19,576 nt of DNA from JACPSX01 sp035288405 [NCBI: bacterium] (lineage in GTDB: Bacteria; JACPSX01), in assembly GCA_035288405.1 (NCBI GenBank), contig DATEAK010000127.1, forward strand, positions 1 to 19,576, in the 5' to 3' direction. This document shows positions 7,714 through 15,288 of this stretch, piece after piece. Under the pieces are notes generated by a model, which had not been told where the DNA came from, made no database searches, and saw only the letters and a program-made list of their open reading frames with translations. A program made the translations under genes and the position numbers. Numbering within the stretch: position 1 is the first letter of the stretch; the number at the start of each line of letters is the position of its first letter.

Positions 7714-8604
7714 ATGAGCGGTACCACTCAGGAACGCACTTGCGGTTTGAATCCGGTGGATACAGTTGTTTTAGCCTATTCCGCAATCATTTTCGTGGTT
7801 ATCGCGTTCCTGGGCTCGAAGGTTCCTCGGCAGGCACTTCATCTATTCCTTCCGGTGGGAATCAGTCTCTTTGCCCTGATCATGAGCCGCTGGTGCCAGC
7901 CTACCTCTCCCCTCTGGGTACGCATTGTCAGAGACTGGTATCCCGTCTTCATCACCCCCCTGTTTTACAAGCAGCTAACGTTCCTGATCCATTCCGTTCA
8001 CCCGGGAGACATGGATCAGGTCCTAATCCTTCTCGACCGCCGCCTCTTCAGCGTTGATCCGACAGTGTGGATGGAACGGGTGACCGCCCCCTGGCTGACG
8101 GAATACTTTCAGATCGTCTATTCGACCTTTTATTTCCTCCCACTCTTGGTCGGTATCCCGATCTATCGAACTCGCTCTCGGCTCCAGTTCCAGGTGGCCG
8201 TGTTCGCAGTGCTGGTAGGGTTCTACTCATCTTACCTGGGATACATTCTTATCCCTGCTCTTGGACCCCGCTTCACCCTGCATTCCTTACAGAGTTTCCC
8301 TCTGAGGGGGATTTTTGCCTTTGAAACGATCCACCGAACTCTTGACCAGATTGAGCAGGTAACCCGGGACGCCTTTCCCAGTGGCCATACCGAGGTCACT
8401 CTGATTCTTCTCTACCTCACTTGGCGTTATTATCGTCCCCTTCTAATTCCGATGGCAGTTATCTCACTAAGCCTCATAGTGTCCACTGTTTACCTGCGCT
8501 ACCATTATGCAGTGGACGTCCTGGCCGGCAGCTTTCTTGCCCTGGCTTGCATTGTGGCCGCGCGTTGGCTGGAGAGTTATCTGTTGCGCAAAGGGAGATC
8601 GTAA
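7714..8604 (+). CDS. PAP2-superfamily integral membrane phosphatase/phosphotransferase (Aur1/IPC-synthase-like)
   Basis: A 296-residue membrane protein with about six hydrophobic segments (for example 16-35, 41-60, 138-152, 160-181, 227-258 and 268-285). The PAP2 active-site elements are present: FPSGHT at 221-226 (His225) and RYHYAVD at 262-268 (His264, Asp268). The GYILIPALGPRF stretch at 176-187 resembles the motif before the active site in the Aur1 / inositol phosphorylceramide synthase branch (PAP2_3). The gene overlaps the end of the ceramide-synthase-like gene by 28 bases in convergent orientation. It could transfer a phospho-headgroup to ceramide or remove a phosphate from a lipid intermediate; family is sure, substrate is inferred from neighbours. 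Confidence 0.8.
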   Translation: MSGTTQERTCGLNPVDTVVLAYSAIIFVVIAFLGSKVPRQALHLFLPVGISLFALIMSRWCQPTSPLWVRIVRDWYPVFITPLFYKQLTFLIHSVHPGDMDQVLILLDRRLFSVDPTVWMERVTAPWLTEYFQIVYSTFYFLPLLVGIPIYRTRSRLQFQVAVFAVLVGFYSSYLGYILIPALGPRFTLHSLQSFPLRGIFAFETIHRTLDQIEQVTRDAFPSGHTEVTLILLYLTWRYYRPLLIPMAVISLSLIVSTVYLRYHYAVDVLAGSFLALACIVAARWLESYLLRKGRS

Positions 8605-9725
8605 ATCCGGTAGGTCTTGGTACGTTGTCCGCCCAGTAGCTCAGCGGCCCGATTCATCATCAGATTGTCTTCCAGCACCCAGGACATTTCCCCTTCCCGG
8701 AACCCCTTCTCCCCTCCCCTGCAGCAGCTTTCCCAGTAAAGTAGCGCGTCGAGTCCCAACTTCTGATACTTGGGAATGATCCCCAAAGTAATGACCCGAA
8801 CCTGGGAAATTCGGCGGCCATACCACCACAGCTTCAGAAACCCCAGGGGAAACAGGCGGCCGTTGGCCCGCTTGAGGGCCGGGTTGATATCCGGAAGGAT
8901 GAGGGAGAAGCCCACAGGCTCTCCGGCAATGGACACAATCAGCAATAAGTCTGGATTGACAAGGGGACGCATGGAACTGGCTACGAATTTAAACTCGGCT
9001 TCCGAGAGCGGAACAAATCCCCAATTCCGGCTCCAAGCCTGGTTGTAAATGTTCCGAATAATCTGGACTTCTTTATCAAAGGCTTTCATGCGAATCGGGC
9101 GCACCTCGGCTCCGCTACGCTGGCGGATACGCTCGACAACCGCGCCGAGCCGGGGAGAAATGCCTTGGTCCGTCAGACGGTAGGCATAAAGGTCTTCGGT
9201 TTTCTTGAATCCAAAGTTTTCCAGAAAACCAGCATAGTAGGGAGGATTGTAGGGCATCATCAGGGAGGGAAACGCTTGGAATCCTTCCACCAGGAGGCCG
9301 CATTCGTGGTTTGTCGTAAAACTGCACGGTCCCCGCAACTGATCCATCCCCTGGCTCCGCGCCCAGTCCGTTGCCCTCTCCAGCAACTCCCGGGCCACAT
9401 CATAATCCTTGATGGTTTCAAAGAATCCGAAGAAGGCAGTCTTTTCCTCATGGAAGGAGTTGTGGGCAGAATCCACACTGGCAGAAATCCGCCCCACAAC
9501 CTTCTTCCCTCGTCTGGCCAGAAACAGAGCCACTTTTGCGTGATCGAAAAAGGGATTGCGCCGCGGATCCAGAAATGTTCGCCTCTCCTCGATTAGAGGA
9601 GGGATCCAGTAGGGGTCATCTTTATAGAAAGCCCAGGGACATGTGATGAAAGAGTCCCGATCGGATCGGGTTTGAACTTCGGAAATGATCAGAGAGGGAT
9701 GCGGCAAGGGGAATGCTGTGCTCAA
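8577..9725 (-). CDS. GNAT-fold acyltransferase, probable bacterial ceramide synthase (bCerS type)
   Basis: A 382-residue soluble protein of the GNAT-like family related to E. coli YghO and to the Caulobacter bacterial ceramide synthase. Family features are the N-terminal PWAFYKDDPYWIPPL box, the NPFFDHA segment, GRISASVDSAHN, the central GPCSFTTNHECGLLVEGF, the PYNPPYYAGFLENFGF motif, and the C-terminal ALLYWESC with VLEDNLMMNRAAELLGG. The predicted reaction is N-acylation of a sphingoid base or 3-keto-sphinganine. It begins with TTG at 9725, overlapping the stop of the SPT-like gene by 4 bases (TTGA), so the two products are probably translated together. The assignment to ceramide synthesis rests on the family and on this coupling. 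Confidence 0.75.
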   Translation of the reverse strand: MSTAFPLPHPSLIISEVQTRSDRDSFITCPWAFYKDDPYWIPPLIEERRTFLDPRRNPFFDHAKVALFLARRGKKVVGRISASVDSAHNSFHEEKTAFFGFFETIKDYDVARELLERATDWARSQGMDQLRGPCSFTTNHECGLLVEGFQAFPSLMMPYNPPYYAGFLENFGFKKTEDLYAYRLTDQGISPRLGAVVERIRQRSGAEVRPIRMKAFDKEVQIIRNIYNQAWSRNWGFVPLSEAEFKFVASSMRPLVNPDLLLIVSIAGEPVGFSLILPDINPALKRANGRLFPLGFLKLWWYGRRISQVRVITLGIIPKYQKLGLDALLYWESCCRGGEKGFREGEMSWVLEDNLMMNRAAELLGGQRTKTYRIYDLPLRNR

Positions 9726-10903
9726 ATGACGCCGAGCCGTTTTCCGACTCTTTCGAAGGCATTCAGGACGAGATCAAGATCCTCGTCCGTATGGGTCGCC
9801 ATGTAGCTTGTCCGCAAAAGAGAACGGCCGGGAGCCACTCCGGGACTCACCACCGGATTTACGTACACACCTTCGTTGAAAATTTCTTTCCAGAACTTAA
9901 ACGTCTTGAGGTCATCACCGATAATAATGGGGATTACCGGACTCTGGCTCGCCCCCGTATCAAACCCGAGACTGGTAAACCCTTCCTTCATCTTTCGGGT
10001 ATTTCGCCATAATTTTTCCCGCCGTTCCGGCTCAGTCTCGATGATGGTCAGTGAAGCGAGAGTTGCTGCCACAGAAGCCGGTGACATGCTGGCACTGAAA
10101 ATTAGAGAGCGGGCATGGTGCTTGATGTAATGGACCACTTCCTTCTTGCCGACCACAAAACCACCCAAGGAGGCAAAGGACTTGCTGAAGGTCCCCATGA
10201 CTAGGTCCACTTGATCCTCCACGTGGAAGTGCTCGGACGTTCCCCGGCCGTTTTCCCCCAAAATTCCGATGGAGTGGGCATCATCGACCATGATGCGAGC
10301 CCCGTAGCGCTTGCACAGCTGCAGGATCTCGGGTAAGGGCGCAATGTCGCCCTCCATGCTGAAGACACCATCGACGATGACCAGTTTTCCGCCGTGGTTG
10401 TTAGTACTGATGAGGGCTCTTTCCAGCTCCTTCATGTCGTTGTGCTTGAATCGTAAGGTTTGCCCGTAGGAGAGGCGGCATCCATCGATGATACTGGCGT
10501 GATCCGTCTTGTCGGTAATCACGGCGTCATCTTTGCTGATCAAGGCCGAAATGGTGCCCAGGTTCGTCTGAAAACCCGTGCTGAAGGCCAGTGCTTCTTC
10601 CTGCTTCATAAAGCGGGCCAGCCGTGCTTCCAGTTCTTCGTGTATGTCCAGAGTCCCGTTGAGAAAACGGGAACCGGAGCAACTGGTTCCATACTTCTCG
10701 ACAGCCCGGATGCTGGCCTCTTTGACCTTGGGATGGGTAGTGAGTCCGAGGTAGTTGTTGGAACCGATCATGATCAACTGGTGGCCGTTGATCGTGACCC
10801 GGGTATCTTGCTGGGATTGTAAGGGGTTGAAATAGGGATACATTCCCATTTGAATGAGCGTTTTTGCTACCGTAAATTTGCTACACTTGTCAAACAAATC
10901 CAT
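9722..10903 (-). CDS. spt: Serine palmitoyltransferase-like alpha-oxoamine synthase
   Basis: A 393-residue PLP enzyme of the alpha-oxoamine synthase family. The PLP lysine is K241 in GTFSKSFASLGG; H135 (DHASIIDG), D208 and H210 (DDAHSIG) complete the cofactor site. The N terminus (MDLFDKCSKF, then YPYFNPL) and the block IMIGSNNYLGLTTHPKVKEA resemble bacterial serine palmitoyltransferases more than glycine C-acetyltransferase (Kbl) or 8-amino-7-oxononanoate synthase (BioF). The reaction would be condensation of serine with an acyl-CoA or acyl-ACP to 3-keto-sphinganine. There are no biotin or threonine-degradation genes nearby, and the coupled downstream gene is ceramide-synthase-like. GGGAGAG precedes the ATG. 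The cytosolic form has no membrane anchor, as in other bacteria. Confidence 0.82.
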   Translation of the reverse strand: MDLFDKCSKFTVAKTLIQMGMYPYFNPLQSQQDTRVTINGHQLIMIGSNNYLGLTTHPKVKEASIRAVEKYGTSCSGSRFLNGTLDIHEELEARLARFMKQEEALAFSTGFQTNLGTISALISKDDAVITDKTDHASIIDGCRLSYGQTLRFKHNDMKELERALISTNNHGGKLVIVDGVFSMEGDIAPLPEILQLCKRYGARIMVDDAHSIGILGENGRGTSEHFHVEDQVDLVMGTFSKSFASLGGFVVGKKEVVHYIKHHARSLIFSASMSPASVAATLASLTIIETEPERREKLWRNTRKMKEGFTSLGFDTGASQSPVIPIIIGDDLKTFKFWKEIFNEGVYVNPVVSPGVAPGRSLLRTSYMATHTDEDLDLVLNAFERVGKRLGVI

Positions 10904-11092
10904 AAAAACTCTCCCGACGACCAGTGAATACCGGGCTGTTAAAAGAAACTTTCACTTACGGATCGGTAGAAGAAGAGGGCGTAAAACCCCCAGAGCACTC
11001 CACCACCGGGAACCGGAACCTGAGGAGGGATGGTGATAACCCCCCAATGGGAAACTGAACCACCCCTGCCACCGCTTCGACGTTCTCCGTCA

Positions 11093-11101
11093 TGCTATAA
11101 T
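11093..11101 (+). promoter_or_regulatory. Extended -10 promoter candidate for the ceramide-reductase-like gene
   Basis: TGCTATAAT is a perfect extended -10 element (TGnTATAAT). The -35 region is poor, which extended -10 promoters can tolerate. Transcription would start near 11108, leaving a leader of about 155 bases before the TTG start at 11264. Confidence 0.5.
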
Positions 11102-11137
11102 GTTCTGCCCTGTAGCAAGGCCGGAATGCTTACCGGA

Positions 11138-11166
11138 AAGACAGCCTATTCTAGTTTCGTTACAAT
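11138..11166 (+). promoter_or_regulatory. Second promoter candidate for the ceramide-reductase-like gene
   Basis: AAGACA (four of six matches to TTGACA) and TACAAT (five of six to TATAAT) are separated by 17 bases. It lies downstream of the extended -10 candidate and would give a shorter leader of about 90 bases. The two candidates may be alternatives. Confidence 0.35.
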
Positions 11167-11263
11167 CGGGTGTCAACAACCAATTCCCCGGCTGCTACAC
11201 GGAGTGTGCAGATCCTAAGTACAGGTTAACTCAAGACTTTTGGAGAAAGAAGGGAGATATCCT

Positions 11264-12244
11264 TTGCGCGTTCTGGTTACCGGCGGCACCGGTTTTCTCG
11301 GCAGCCATCTCGTTGAAACTCTGCTGGAGAAGAAGGCCGAAGTAGCATGCCTGGTGAGATCCACCAGCAACCTGCGCTGGATCGAAGGGCTTCCTGTGGA
11401 GCGGGTTCCCGGAAGCTTGGAAGACCCGGAATCCCTCCGGCGCGCAGTTGCGGGGGTTGAGGTTGTCATCCACGCTGCGGGGGTAACCAAGGCCATTTCT
11501 TCCGTCTCCTACGATCGCTTCAACCACCAAGGGACCCGAAACTTACTCGATGCATGTGTCCGGAACGGTTCCAGTCTGAAACGATTTGTGTACGTAAGCA
11601 GCCTGGCAGCGGCGGGGCCCAGTTCAACTCGTGTCCCCCGCAAGGAAATCGATCCGCCAGCCCCCGTTTCACTTTATGGTCTAAGCAAACTCCGGGGTGA
11701 AGAGGCAGCCCTTTCTTACGGATCCCTCTTTCCAGTAACTGTGGTCCGTCCGCCCGCCCTCTTCGGCCCCCGGGACTCCGACCTTTTCGAATTGATAAAG
11801 ATGATCGGGGGGGGGATTTTTGCCACATTCGGTAAGGGAGAGAGACTCATTGATCTCTGCTACGTTACGGATGCAGTCCGGGGAATTCTCTTGGCGGCCG
11901 AGCAGCCGAATGCCGTAGGCCAGGTGTTTTTCATAGGCAGCGGACAAAGCTACTCCTGGGAGATGGTTGCCCATCTGGTGGCCGCTCAATTAGGAACCAC
12001 TTTGAAAATGATCTCGCTTCCTGCATCCGCTGCCTCCGTCTATGCACTGGCCTGCGATGTCAGGGCCTATTTCACTGGAAGGCCTTTCATCATCAGCCGT
12101 CACAAGCTTCCGGAACTCCGGCAGCGCTACTGGATCTGCGACATAGGAAAAGCCCGGGAAATTTTAAACTACCGTCCCGCCACTCCTCTGGAGCAAGGCT
12201 TGAACCTCACCGTCCAATGGTACCGGAACCAGGGCTGGATTTAG
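11264..12244 (+). CDS. NAD(P)-dependent epimerase/reductase, probable ceramide reductase (CerR type)
   Basis: A 326-residue extended short-chain dehydrogenase. The Rossmann glycine motif TGGTGFLG lies at residues 6-13, the catalytic YxxxK is in SLYGLSK, and the matching serine is in YVSSLAAAG. The SDR fold alone does not name a substrate, but extended SDRs of this kind serve as CerR in bacterial sphingolipid synthesis, reducing the 3-oxo group of oxidised ceramide, and the gene lies divergent to spt. Another sterol or sugar nucleotide substrate remains possible. The frame is open to a TTG at 11240, but the TTG at 11264 is preferred: AGGGAG lies 7 bases upstream and the protein then opens with the typical RVLVTGG. 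The 3' end overlaps the convergent DUF763 gene by 38 bases. Confidence 0.72.
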   Translation: MRVLVTGGTGFLGSHLVETLLEKKAEVACLVRSTSNLRWIEGLPVERVPGSLEDPESLRRAVAGVEVVIHAAGVTKAISSVSYDRFNHQGTRNLLDACVRNGSSLKRFVYVSSLAAAGPSSTRVPRKEIDPPAPVSLYGLSKLRGEEAALSYGSLFPVTVVRPPALFGPRDSDLFELIKMIGGGIFATFGKGERLIDLCYVTDAVRGILLAAEQPNAVGQVFFIGSGQSYSWEMVAHLVAAQLGTTLKMISLPASAASVYALACDVRAYFTGRPFIISRHKLPELRQRYWICDIGKAREILNYRPATPLEQGLNLTVQWYRNQGWI

Positions 12245-13388
12245 CAGAAAGCGAAAAAACGCTCGCATGCTCCTTAGAGACCTGATGCCACCAGGCCTCC
12301 AAAGACCGCAATGACTTGAGTTTGTCCCCATCCCCCACACGGGCCCTGCGCACCGCGGTTTCTAGAAAGGAAATGGACTTTCCGTAGCTCTCCATGTCAA
12401 CGGGATAGGGGTGTCCATCTTTTCCCCCGTGCGCAAAGCTGTAGCGGGCCGGATCGCTAAAAGAAGCGGGGGCCCCGTAGAGAAGCTCCGCCAGCAGGCT
12501 CAGGGCTCTCACTGTCTTGGCACCAACACCCGGCATCTCCAGGAGCTTCTTAAAATCCCCGGGCTGGCGATCGTAGGTAGAGAGAAAGATTTTTTGCAGT
12601 CGATCGGGGTGAATATCCTCCATCTTGATTGGGTGACGCTCCGGCAACTCCAATCCACGAACAGCCTTGAGTTCTGCGAGCAACCTTTCCGGTTTTTCGC
12701 GGGAAAGTAGGGCGACTGCCTGACGGCACTTCCCACTGTCCGCTGCAATTAGATCCAAGACGCTCTCCTCCCGACAGTCACAGCAGATGGCGGACTCGGG
12801 CTCGCAGACAAAGTCGGAGACGGCACTGCTGATCCAATGATAGCGTCGGGCATAGCGGGTGTCGGAGTTCATCCCCTGTTGGACGACACACCACTCCCCT
12901 TCCCGCGTAAATACGAAGACATGATGGTACAGCGTGTAGCCATCCTGGACCGCCACCGAATCCACCTTGGCAGCCATCCGGCTTGCGTAAACGAGGGGTT
13001 GGGGATCTACGGAAAGATGCGGAGCATAGTTCCCAATTTCCACAGGAGTTTGTCGGGACGTTGCTCCTTTTCCCCCGGCTATGAATAGTCCCAGGTCGTG
13101 CTCCTGTCCGCGAATTCCCTCTTTCAAGGCGCCACATACGGTCGTTGTGACACCACTGCTGTGCCAGTCAAAGCCCAATACGGCTCCCAGCGCCTGAAAC
13201 CAATATGGATCGGAAAGACGGATGAGAACCTCCCGGGGACCGAATTCGAGGACCAGAGCCGCGGTGATTTCCCTCCCCAGGCGTACCATCTTCTCGAAGA
13301 GCCAGGGAGGCGCTTTCCCCCAGTGCAGCGGCAGATTTGCGATACCGCGTCTTCTCAACAAAAGAAAATTTGCCTCTCTCTGCGGCAA
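12207..13388 (-). CDS. DUF763 domain protein with helix-hairpin-helix segment
   Basis: A protein of up to 393 residues that matches the DUF763 family over most of its length. Signature stretches are GIANLPLHWGKAPPWLFEKM near the N terminus and SDPYWFQALGAVLGFDWHSSG further on, followed by VTTTVCGALKEG. A cysteine-rich patch (ICCDC) follows around residue 205. The segment LLEMPGVGAKTVRALSLLAEL is a helix-hairpin-helix of the type found in DNA glycosylases and other DNA-binding proteins. No biochemical function is known to me. The first codon is TTG at 13388, but homologues begin near RRRGIA, so TTG at 13361 or 13358 may be the true start; no site has an ideal ribosome-binding sequence. It starts 12 bases after the crotonase stop. 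Confidence 0.85.
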   Translation of the reverse strand: MPQREANFLLLRRRGIANLPLHWGKAPPWLFEKMVRLGREITAALVLEFGPREVLIRLSDPYWFQALGAVLGFDWHSSGVTTTVCGALKEGIRGQEHDLGLFIAGGKGATSRQTPVEIGNYAPHLSVDPQPLVYASRMAAKVDSVAVQDGYTLYHHVFVFTREGEWCVVQQGMNSDTRYARRYHWISSAVSDFVCEPESAICCDCREESVLDLIAADSGKCRQAVALLSREKPERLLAELKAVRGLELPERHPIKMEDIHPDRLQKIFLSTYDRQPGDFKKLLEMPGVGAKTVRALSLLAELLYGAPASFSDPARYSFAHGGKDGHPYPVDMESYGKSISFLETAVRRARVGDGDKLKSLRSLEAWWHQVSKEHASVFSLSAKSSPGSGTIGR

Positions 13389-13400
13389 TCGTCAGAAGAT

Positions 13401-14192
13401 CTACTTCCGAAACTGGGCAAAATTGGCGGGGCGCTTTTCTAAGAAAGCTTTCATTCCCTCCACAAGTTCTTCGCTGCCGTATGCGGAACACAAAATATCA
13501 ATTCCGTGCAGATAAGAAGGCAAAAGTTCATCGGACGCAAAATTAAACGAGAGCTTGGCGATCCGCAAAGCCTGTGGACTCATGGAGAGAATCCTTTCAC
13601 ACCATTCGGTAACCGCCTTCTCCAACTCGCCGGCGTCGGCCACCATCCGATTGATCCACCCCCACTCGAGTGCTTGCTTGGCGCTGTATCGTTGGCAGAG
13701 ATAGACAATTTCCCGCGCCCGTTTTTCCCCTACCGTGCGGGGAAGGAGCTGGGTCGCTCCCAGGATGGGGGAACTTCCAACCCTGGGGCCCACTTGGCCG
13801 AAGAACGATTTCTCAGTGGCAATGGTAAGATCACACATCATGTTAAACTCGTTGCCGCCTCCCAGGCAGTAACCATCCACAGCGGCGAGAACCGGCTTCC
13901 CCGCACCTCTCATGAGTTGAAAAATATTCCAGAGCTTACCGAGAAAAATCCGGCCCGTCGTGGAAGTCAAGGCACTCATTTCTTCCACGTCCCCGCCCGA
14001 GCAAAATGCCTTGCCACCGGCTCCACCCAGGACAATAACCCCCACCCTGTTATCTTGTCCGGCATCGATAAACGCCTGATGGATCTCGTGCAGGGTCAAG
14101 CTCCGAAAGGAATTTAAGACTTCGGGCCGGTTGATGGTAATCCGCGCGATTCCAGCTTCCTTGACGTACAGAATGTCCTTAAAAGAACTCAT
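13401..14192 (-). CDS. Enoyl-CoA hydratase/isomerase family protein, MenB/BadI-like
   Basis: A 263-residue crotonase. Oxyanion-hole segments are AFCSGGDVEEM and DGYCLGGGNEF. The blocks INRPEVLNSFR, MMCDLTIATEKSFFGQVGPRVGS and VGEKRAREIVYLCQRYSAKQAL closely follow 1,4-dihydroxy-2-naphthoyl-CoA synthase (MenB) and 2-ketocyclohexanecarboxyl-CoA hydrolase (BadI), rather than FadB-type hydratases. MenB makes the naphthoquinone ring; BadI opens a ring in anaerobic aromatic degradation. No men or bad genes are nearby, so the reaction is left open. ATG at 14192 is chosen over ATG at 14210 because AAGGAGG lies 5 bases upstream; this start still overlaps the SPL-like gene by 14 bases, indicating one transcript. 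Confidence 0.82.
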   Translation of the reverse strand: MSSFKDILYVKEAGIARITINRPEVLNSFRSLTLHEIHQAFIDAGQDNRVGVIVLGGAGGKAFCSGGDVEEMSALTSTTGRIFLGKLWNIFQLMRGAGKPVLAAVDGYCLGGGNEFNMMCDLTIATEKSFFGQVGPRVGSSPILGATQLLPRTVGEKRAREIVYLCQRYSAKQALEWGWINRMVADAGELEKAVTEWCERILSMSPQALRIAKLSFNFASDELLPSYLHGIDILCSAYGSEELVEGMKAFLEKRPANFAQFRK

Positions 14193-15288
14193 GCCGACCT
14201 CCTTGCTCATGGAACAGTTCGTTCGCCGTCACCTGGCAGTGAGGGCTCCAGCCAAAGACGTCTTTCCAGACATCAGGACCTTCCATACAGAGGTAAATAA
14301 AAACGCGGGGGTTTCGGGACCGAATCAAGGCATGCAATGTGCGGTACATCTGGATCCGAACTTGCCGGAGGTAGCGCATCTTCCCATCCTGCCCGGGAAC
14401 AAATTCCTCATAGAGAAGACGTGTCTTGGGAAACCGCTCTTCCATCACTTCCTTGAGCTCGGGCGGGTAGCGGAATCCTCCAAGGCTCACCCAGAGAATT
14501 TGGCGGGAATCAATCACTGAGAAAAGTTGATCGAGGAGTTCCTTATACTCCTTCTCCCAGCGCGGTGAGTAGATCAGGGGATCGAGATGGAAGCCGATCT
14601 TGTAGCCTGCCTCCTGGCACCTGCGGGCAGCAGACAGTCGTTCTTCCAAAGATGCGGTCTTGTGCTCTTCCTGGGAAATGATCCTCTGCGGGTTAAGGCT
14701 CCAGGAAATGACCACTCTCCCCTTGGGGTCCAGATCCAAAAGATTTTCCACTTGAGCGCTCTTCGTCTTGAGTTCCAAGAGCGCGTCTTTTTGGGCGGCG
14801 AAAAACGGGACCAGAAGCCGACTCATTTCGGTGATGTGATCCAGGGCCAAACTGTCGGCGATTTCTCCGGTACCCATGCGGAAAGGCCGGCCCGGATTGG
14901 CCGCCAGAGCTGCTTCCACCTCCTCAAGCATCTCCTCCATATTCGTATAGACCACCAGGAAGGGATTATTGAGGTATGTTTGCAAAAAACAGTAGCTACA
15001 CTCGAAGGAACAGTTGGAGAGAGGGTTTAGAACATAATAGTTGCAGCAGACCTCTCCGGCAGTACCCGGACATTTTTTTAAGAACTTCCCCTTGTGGGCA
15101 GTAAGAAAAAGGGTCCTTTTCCCCACCGTGATCGAGGTCCCGGGAAACCGCATTTCGGGCGTGAGTTCCGCAGGGTCGGAGATGATCCTTCGGGGGACAT
15201 CGGGGAGATTCTTTATGACCGTCTGCGTCATGGGGCTTCCCAGCACTCGGTTGTCGATCATCACGGTAGAGGGCTGGTAACGGATCAT
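14179..15288 (-). CDS. Spore photoproduct lyase-like radical SAM protein
   Basis: A 369-residue radical SAM enzyme. The [4Fe-4S] cluster motif CX3CX2C is at C93, C97 and C100 within NCSFECSYCFLQTYLNNP, as in spore photoproduct lyase (SplB). Aligning the next 40 residues by eye with Geobacillus/Bacillus SPL, the hydrogen-donor Cys141 of true SPL falls on Glu142 here, inside MGTGEIADSLALD. Extra cysteines C73, C81 and C82 precede the cluster motif. It therefore probably does not perform standard spore photoproduct repair, and nothing else in the window suggests sporulation. The ATG overlaps the stop of the ParB-like gene by 4 bases (ATGA), implying coupled translation. The substrate is unknown; a nucleic acid is a reasonable guess. 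Confidence 0.82.
   Translation of the reverse strand: MIRYQPSTVMIDNRVLGSPMTQTVIKNLPDVPRRIISDPAELTPEMRFPGTSITVGKRTLFLTAHKGKFLKKCPGTAGEVCCNYYVLNPLSNCSFECSYCFLQTYLNNPFLVVYTNMEEMLEEVEAALAANPGRPFRMGTGEIADSLALDHITEMSRLLVPFFAAQKDALLELKTKSAQVENLLDLDPKGRVVISWSLNPQRIISQEEHKTASLEERLSAARRCQEAGYKIGFHLDPLIYSPRWEKEYKELLDQLFSVIDSRQILWVSLGGFRYPPELKEVMEERFPKTRLLYEEFVPGQDGKMRYLRQVRIQMYRTLHALIRSRNPRVFIYLCMEGPDVWKDVFGWSPHCQVTANELFHEQGGRHEFF

Follow-up and report, generated by a model that had tools for sequence, protein, structure and literature searches.

A probable bacterial ceramide locus with a candidate Aur1-type head-group transferase in a JACPSX01 genome

Ceramide is a lipid formerly regarded as characteristic of animals, plants and fungi. 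Sphingolipid-capable bacteria are now increasingly being mapped from their genes, whereas the head groups of their lipids and the enzymes that attach them are much less clear. The closest described systems are the ceramide genes of Caulobacter and Escherichia coli BL21 (spt, acpR, aasR, cerR/epi and bcerS/yghO). The gene aca (yghO, ECD_02850, in BL21; CC_1154 in Caulobacter) is required for dihydroceramide synthesis, and the serine palmitoyltransferase (SPT) of BL21 yielded 3-oxo-sphinganine, with roles proposed for the BL21 reductase and acyltransferase (PMC9386255; this and the other papers cited by PMC number are represented here by excerpts). Spt-like genes have been reported from 38 phyla among Black Sea bins, some of them co-localised with bCerS and CerR, although this is not universal, as none of 33 Cloacimonadota bins showed such co-localisation (PMC11334938). 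In Bacteroides, the AUR1 homologue BT_1522 is treated as the PI-dihydroceramide synthase (PMC9246714). The core ceramide genes are known from many phyla, and a recurrent Aur1-type neighbour is little explored. Among the matches listed for open-licence PMC papers, none linked Aur1 or PAP2 proteins to bacterial ceramide clusters beyond Bacteroides; the main text of PMC11334938 has no word starting with inositol or phosphoethanolamine, and its excerpts showed no PAP2 link.

In this study, we analyzed a stretch of 19,576 nt (the window) from contig DATEAK010000127.1 of JACPSX01 sp035288405 (assembly GCA_035288405.1), and found that, to judge from sequences and structure models, it quite likely carries a ceramide locus equipped with an Aur1-type head-group transferase, so that phosphosphingolipids are the predicted products. 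Homology and predicted folds support this reading, as do the order of the genes and their co-occurrence; the substrates, step order and head group are deduced. In common with the Caulobacter and BL21 genes, the window has a Spt-like alpha-oxoamine synthase (AOS), a YghO-family acyltransferase and an extended short-chain dehydrogenase/reductase (SDR). It differs in that acpR and aasR were not found in the window, the AOS is nearest to the Cytophaga-Flavobacterium-Bacteroides (CFB) type, a PAP2 gene is added and the SDR gene is divergent. For this comparison, the BL21 genes, named by gene order from PMC9386255, were used directly, and those of Caulobacter through the description in the same paper. 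The Black Sea bins show the same three-gene grouping, there in little-studied anaerobes (PMC11334938).

All four open reading frames of the first-pass annotation, which had described a compact ceramide biosynthesis locus, were confirmed within positions 7714-12244, together with the expected domains (Pfam bits/cut-off: PAP2_3, 68.7/27; Acetyltransf_1, 23.0/20.7; Aminotran_1_2, 215.4/19.7; Epimerase, 137.1/20.9). The first encodes a putative Aur1-like PAP2 integral membrane protein of 296 aa (7714..8604, plus strand). Its 3' end overlaps by 28 nt (8577..8604) that of a convergent gene for a predicted tandem-GNAT N-acyltransferase of 382 aa with a TTG start (8577..9725, minus strand). The SPT-like AOS of 393 aa follows on the same strand (9722..10903), and the bases TTGA at 9722..9725 (minus strand) are shared between its TGA stop and the TTG start of the GNAT gene, so that translational coupling of the two may be inferred from the overlap. 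A divergent intergenic region of 360 nt (10904..11263) separates the AOS gene from that of the extended SDR (326 aa; 11264..12244, plus strand), a candidate ceramide/3-ketosphinganine reductase of the CerR-like kind. A consensus scan, the only source for these sites, placed here a good sigma-70-like site toward the AOS gene (TTGACA-17-TAGAAT, 11176-11148), whereas the site toward the SDR gene (11138-11166) was weaker; such sites numbered six between 7400 and 12300, compared with 2.5 (standard deviation 1.5) in shuffled sequence.

The AOS would, as a pyridoxal phosphate (PLP) enzyme, condense serine with an acyl thioester to give 3-ketosphinganine. Its top NCBIfam model was NF047600, the equivalog model of CFB-type SPT (567.8 bits; next model, 434), and its best match among solved proteins was the SPT of Sphingobacterium multivorum (3a2b; 444 bits, 51% identity over 386 residues), a solved enzyme, whereas the window AOS is a predicted one. 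Lower scores were obtained with the Thermus AOS (319 bits), the Sphingomonas SPT 2x8u (297), Kbl (293) and the cysteate acyltransferase 28eh (260). Pairwise scores would thus place the AOS with the Sphingobacterium type, but by themselves they leave Sphingomonas SPT level with Kbl, and the distinction comes from the trees. A quick tree was built from 82 rows (short rows L035, L038 and L087 and copies of fetched loci omitted, copies L111, L112 and L115 kept). In it, the window protein and all SPT references formed a 71-row clade (SH-aLRT 100), with Kbl, BioF and the Thermus AOS outside. A careful tree of 29 rows selected from the 82 recovered it in a 22-row SPT clade with support of 100/100. 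Bacteroidota, Sphingomonas and E. coli BL21 all contribute SPTs to this clade; among the reference rows, those of Bacteroides finegoldii and Prevotella were counted as SPT by homology and context. Grouping of the window AOS with Kbl in the 29-row tree was rejected by the approximately unbiased (AU) test (p 0.019). In addition, the AOS has the PLP lysine and core motifs of alpha-oxoamine synthases; its motif TFSKS around this lysine was present in five of five SPT rows, and in none of the three outgroups (Kbl, BioF and Thermus AOS). A Kbl or BioF identity, which had been named beforehand as one of the results that would refute a ceramide locus, was rejected by both trees and, for Kbl, by the AU test, and the AOS lay within the clade of every SPT reference used.

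Homology does not reveal which amino acid the AOS uses. It may take alanine, cysteate or another amino acid and produce a 1-deoxyceramide or sulfonolipid-like base, with the PAP2 protein acting elsewhere; Spt can accept alanine, and 1-deoxyceramides and sulfono-1-deoxyceramides have been tied to Desulfobacterota and/or Bacteroidota by co-abundance (PMC11334938). We consider this unlikely here, since the AOS scored 444 bits against Sphingobacterium SPT and only 260 against 28eh, and an Aur1-like enzyme beside the cluster would need an acceptor with a C1 hydroxyl, which favors serine over alanine as the substrate. Cysteate is disfavored by score only, as the trees held no cysteate acyltransferase row. 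Because 1-deoxyceramides lack the C1 hydroxyl (PMC11334938), the serine and alanine readings predict different lipids that mass spectrometry could separate. Outside such clusters, an SPT-like AOS with 56% identity to that of the window is encoded on a mobilizable plasmid of Priestia megaterium (Bacillota; L094:8001-9215), with methyltransferase and acyltransferase genes nearby and no GNAT or SDR annotated in the 17 kb shown.

The GNAT protein would carry out the bCerS step, N-acylation of 3-ketosphinganine. Its identity was 37% to BL21 YghO (371 columns) and 35% to a Sphingomonas parapaucimobilis protein taken as bCerS (378 columns), the homology in both cases extending over about 95% of its length. 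Gene position and homology are the basis of the CerR, SPT and bCerS labels of this species, in which the presumed bCerS lies about 6 kb from spt. An alignment of 40 sequences contained 24 invariant columns. No solved relative was found by sequence search. The structure model, with a predicted local distance difference test (pLDDT) score of 91.6, showed a tandem GNAT fold, and its best structural matches were also tandem GNAT folds (7q3a: Z 25.6, root-mean-square deviation (rmsd) 3.2, 304 residues). Lower in the ranking were N-myristoyltransferases (Z about 16.5), enzymes that handle long acyl-CoA. In a GNAT tree of 89 rows (ten duplicates dropped; L099 and L100, copies of L009 and L013, kept), midpoint-rooted with no outgroup, the E. 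coli and Sphingomonas proteins formed one branch and all other proteins another, with the window protein on a long branch. Thus, of the earlier proposal of a YghO/bCerS-type protein, family membership stands by near full-length homology, and at that level a GNAT protein foreign to bCerS, another result named beforehand as refuting, was not observed; placement inside a bCerS clade goes beyond what an outgroup-less tree can support.

The SDR is the weakest assignment of the locus. It would reduce the 3-keto group, before or after acylation. Its translation shows GxxGxxG and YxxxK, and it was 28% identical to Epi/CerR of BL21 over 318 columns; the best curated models lay far under their cut-offs for the window SDR and the CerR references alike. 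The annotated start at 11240 probably lies too far upstream. On sequence grounds, the most likely start is a TTG at 11264, which is in frame and has AAGGGAG 7 nt before it; the protein then opens with MRVLVTGGTGFLG, a Rossmann motif, and the BL21 and Sphingomonas reference reductases likewise begin directly at this motif. In a quick tree of 64 rows (short and duplicate rows dropped; L093 kept beside its own reference row), a group of 56 rows (SH-aLRT 92) held the window SDR, both CerR references, 45 of the 47 cluster SDRs (the exceptions being L007 and L014), two NDUFA9-type proteins and a second Myxococcus SDR. The broad clade was recovered with 100/100 support in a careful tree of 31 rows selected from the 64, the oxidoreductase 3wj7 being included in it. 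In each of two Myxococcus genomes, the SDR beside the GNAT gene was outscored by another match to the window SDR. These sequences appear compatible with CerR and place the protein in a broad CerR/NDUFA9-like group. The earlier description of the SDR as like ceramide reductase holds for an extended, divergently encoded SDR of this clade, and a specific grouping with CerR would go beyond what these trees show. Judged by its context, the protein likely reduces a keto-sphingoid, a role that descent does not prove.

The order of the two middle steps may also differ. Both orders have been proposed (PMC11087976), and a eukaryote-like route, in which the SDR reduces 3-ketosphinganine and the GNAT enzyme then acylates sphinganine, is possible, though we give it somewhat less weight than acylation first. 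A 3-ketosphinganine reductase has been shown in Bacteroides, though it is a different kind of SDR of about 31 kDa (PMC9278070), and the window SDR begins at its Rossmann motif with no signal peptide visible in the translation. On the other hand, CerR of Caulobacter has been placed in the periplasm, after acylation (PMC11087976). The BL21 and Sphingomonas reference reductases also show no signal peptide, so its absence from the window SDR decides nothing about a periplasmic location.

The PAP2 protein is a candidate ceramide phospho-head-group transferase of the Aur1 type, as judged from sequence profiles and a predicted fold. In the reaction that it would catalyze, a glycerophospholipid donates a phospho-alcohol, either phosphoethanolamine or phosphoinositol, to the C1 hydroxyl of ceramide. 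A search with the single window sequence found nothing. A profile built from 21 PAP2 proteins of loci of this kind, that of the window included, ranked the fungal protein AUR1 first (E 2.2e-7; 215 of 288 positions), followed by YodM (E 2.4e-4) and PgpB (E 1.3e-3). The AlphaFold2 model (pLDDT 91.9) also matched AUR1, the inositol phosphorylceramide (IPC) synthase, best (9vj4: Z 19.8, 256 residues, rmsd 3.8; 9ivc: Z 19.7, 272 residues), ahead of the phosphatases LpxE (Z 15.8, 161 residues) and PgpB (Z 14.6, 168 residues). The AUR1 alignments spanned 256-272 of 296 residues, compared with about 160-185 for phosphatases, and the AUR1-like fold includes the N-terminal helices. Foldseek returned AUR1, then a sphingomyelin synthase-related protein and then phosphatases, with E < 0.001 for the two AUR1 entries only. 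Although identity to AUR1 was 16% in the structural alignment, the PAP2 fold and catalytic motifs are common to both: H225 (in PSGH), H264 and D268, invariant in the 21 sequences, form a His-His-Asp active site, and the third motif STVYLRYHY shares its T with AUR1, the corresponding residue of the phosphatase 5jki being R. The Aur1-like call of the first-pass annotation was borne out in that profile and predicted fold both ranked AUR1 first.

PAP2 folds are common among phosphatases, LpxE and PgpB come directly after AUR1 by Z, and its NCBIfam matches (E 2e-5 to 0.01, far under cut-off) are to phosphatases. The PAP2 protein might then act as a lipid phosphatase, for instance on undecaprenyl diphosphate or phosphatidylglycerol phosphate, and lie next to the cluster without belonging to it. 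However, the first rank of AUR1 by profile and fold with near full-length coverage, the AUR1-like T of the third motif and the co-occurrence with the GNAT gene described below make this quite improbable. As to the head group of an Aur1-type transferase, inositol synthase was present in 13 and phosphatidylserine decarboxylase in 16 of 18 relatives' genomes, and donors of phosphoinositol and phosphoethanolamine both appear possible, since both genes are frequent. Compared with BT_1522, which is likened here by description only and lies in an inositol-lipid cluster (PMC9246714), the window PAP2 gene adjoins ceramide genes.

To relate these genes to one another across bacteria, 80 loci were analyzed. 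They had been chosen for the similarity of their GNAT genes, as the best 80 of 406 candidates, so that the sample is biased. The counts, taken from tblastn match coordinates, are lower bounds, because many of the contigs are short; most relatives are metagenome bins, in which absences are weak. Phylum tallies are unreliable for loci labelled 'Deltaproteobacteria bacterium', most of which are put under Myxococcota by NCBI ranks. An AOS was located less than 1 kb from the GNAT gene in 56 loci and an SDR less than 3 kb from it in 47, with both in 41. PAP2 occurred within 3 kb of GNAT in 20, of which 15 also had an AOS and an SDR at the distances given. The grouping of these genes is beyond chance. 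AOS and GNAT matches also overlapped in L012, L040 and L046 by match coordinates. The convergent arrangement of the window, with PAP2 at most 200 nt from GNAT, was found in 10 of the 80 loci, and the two genes overlapped in five. None of the 80 had a divergent SDR and a PAP2 near GNAT as in the window, whose gene order thus appears to be a shuffle of common parts.

We also examined whole genomes. Among the 18 relatives, 16 of which had been chosen for a PAP2 gene beside the cluster, PAP2 was found in 17 and was the sole match in 14 of these, which shows that it is not a gene turning up everywhere. In the class around G002, 17 of 23 genomes contained the GNAT gene; all 17 also contained PAP2, which was adjacent to GNAT in 15 (Fisher p 1.8e-4 over the 23 genomes, kinship ignored). 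This co-occurrence argues against PAP2 as a mere neighbour. At least seven of the 17 had been reached via GNAT-selected loci, and nine of the remaining 10 had the adjacent pair. It appears slightly more probable than not that an Aur1-type transferase family is built into ceramide clusters of deltaproteobacterial, Nitrospirota, Acidobacteriota and other lineages, and that these mostly uncultured bacteria thereby make phosphosphingolipids, either ceramide phosphoethanolamine or phosphoinositol, in a route that parallels that of fungi. An Aur1-like enzyme that tracks ceramide genes is a concrete, testable head-group candidate outside Bacteroides, and it may also help to trace how fungal IPC synthase, a target of antifungals, evolved.

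The AOS, GNAT and SDR genes also occur together on plasmids of Rubrobacter, Aureispira and Streptomyces. On the Streptomyces plasmid (L126:4995-9521), they overlap by 4 nt each and are followed by a condensation-domain gene, an arrangement that would suit an AOS-GNAT pair whose product is not a membrane lipid but a secreted natural product, an N-acyl amino ketone. For the window we regard such a product as very improbable: its locus is without a tailoring gene of this kind, and a membrane lipid is suggested both by the placement in the SPT clade and by the Aur1-like neighbour.

Several findings weigh against a ceramide locus with an Aur1-type transferase in the window. First, the AOS missed the curated cut-off of NF047600 (567.8 versus 640 bits), and is filed here as Spt-like rather than as an NF047600 equivalog for this reason; it also scored Sphingomonas SPT (297 bits) no better than Kbl (293). 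Second, the window SDR fell outside the smaller CerR group (92/93) of the careful 31-row tree, and its pairing with 3wj7 was left standing by the AU test (p 0.38). Third, the sphingomyelin synthase-related protein, a ceramide enzyme, ranked under LpxE and PgpB as a match of the PAP2 model by Z (12.1; 195 residues). Fourth, 60 of the 80 loci showed no PAP2 within 3 kb, the PAP2 genes of G038 and G039 lay away from GNAT, and G024, one of the six GNAT-negative genomes of the class, had an 81-residue PAP2 match. Inositol synthase did not track the cluster either (15 of 17 genomes with the GNAT gene and four of six without, in the class of 23); its presence, similar in both sets, was therefore discarded as an indicator of the head group. 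In the window and the 80 loci, tblastn at E 0.01 found no AcpR-like acyl carrier gene, and AasR gave two weak matches only (L028 and L046). Finally, a GNAT subclade of 15 rows had no AOS nearby, and the closest GNAT relatives of the window, L001 and L002 (about 50%), had none beside them. Because this subclade exists, membership of the YghO family alone is no proof of ceramide synthesis, and the coupling to an AOS carries most weight.

Members of the YghO family without a nearby AOS suggest that other roles in the family are possible. Their subclade spans Aminicenantota, LCP-89, Fermentibacterota and others (rows including L045:9983-11104, L067:10004-11113 and L060), and the neighbours at three of these loci were TetR and patatin, MMPL and a LolA-like protein, and a Lon-like protease and a tRNA synthetase, respectively. 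Both kinds of GNAT occur in the bins GMC4, CSMAG_1030 and CSMAG_2897, so the kind without AOS may acylate another envelope lipid. L001 and L002, for their part, keep the divergent SDR, and the same bins contain an SPT-like AOS on another contig (65-66%; L097 and L098).

A second gene pair was observed in Bacteroides finegoldii (L127:4976-6939), where a PAP2_3 gene follows directly on a CerR-like SDR gene, with an overlap of 10 nt, at a site apart from spt; identities to the window proteins were 30% for the SDR and 24% for the PAP2_3 protein. By sequence, the two form a candidate reductase and head-group pair, and may represent the same kind of head-group module. The SDR (335 aa) is probably not the reductase BT_0972, from which it is set apart by size (about 31 kDa for BT_0972; PMC9278070), and the pair is probably distinct from the neighbourhood of BT_1522 as described in PMC9246714.

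Beyond the SDR gene, the window contains genes for a DUF763 protein, an enoyl-CoA hydratase, a radical SAM protein similar to spore photoproduct lyase (SPL), a ParB-like protein and others. The DUF763 gene (12207-13388) converges on the SDR gene with a 38-nt overlap. The SPL-like protein (14179-15288) scored 128.1 with Pfam SPL (cut-off 27) and 153.5 with the NCBIfam model (cut-off 400); the host looks Gram-negative. On the other side of the locus, an isc operon (iscR-iscS-iscU-iscA-hscB-hscA-fdx, named by eye from translations) runs on the minus strand from 7428 down to 1968. Its HscA had a best identity over its length of 56% (G048 and G051) among 25 genomes, with a partial match of 58% in G049.

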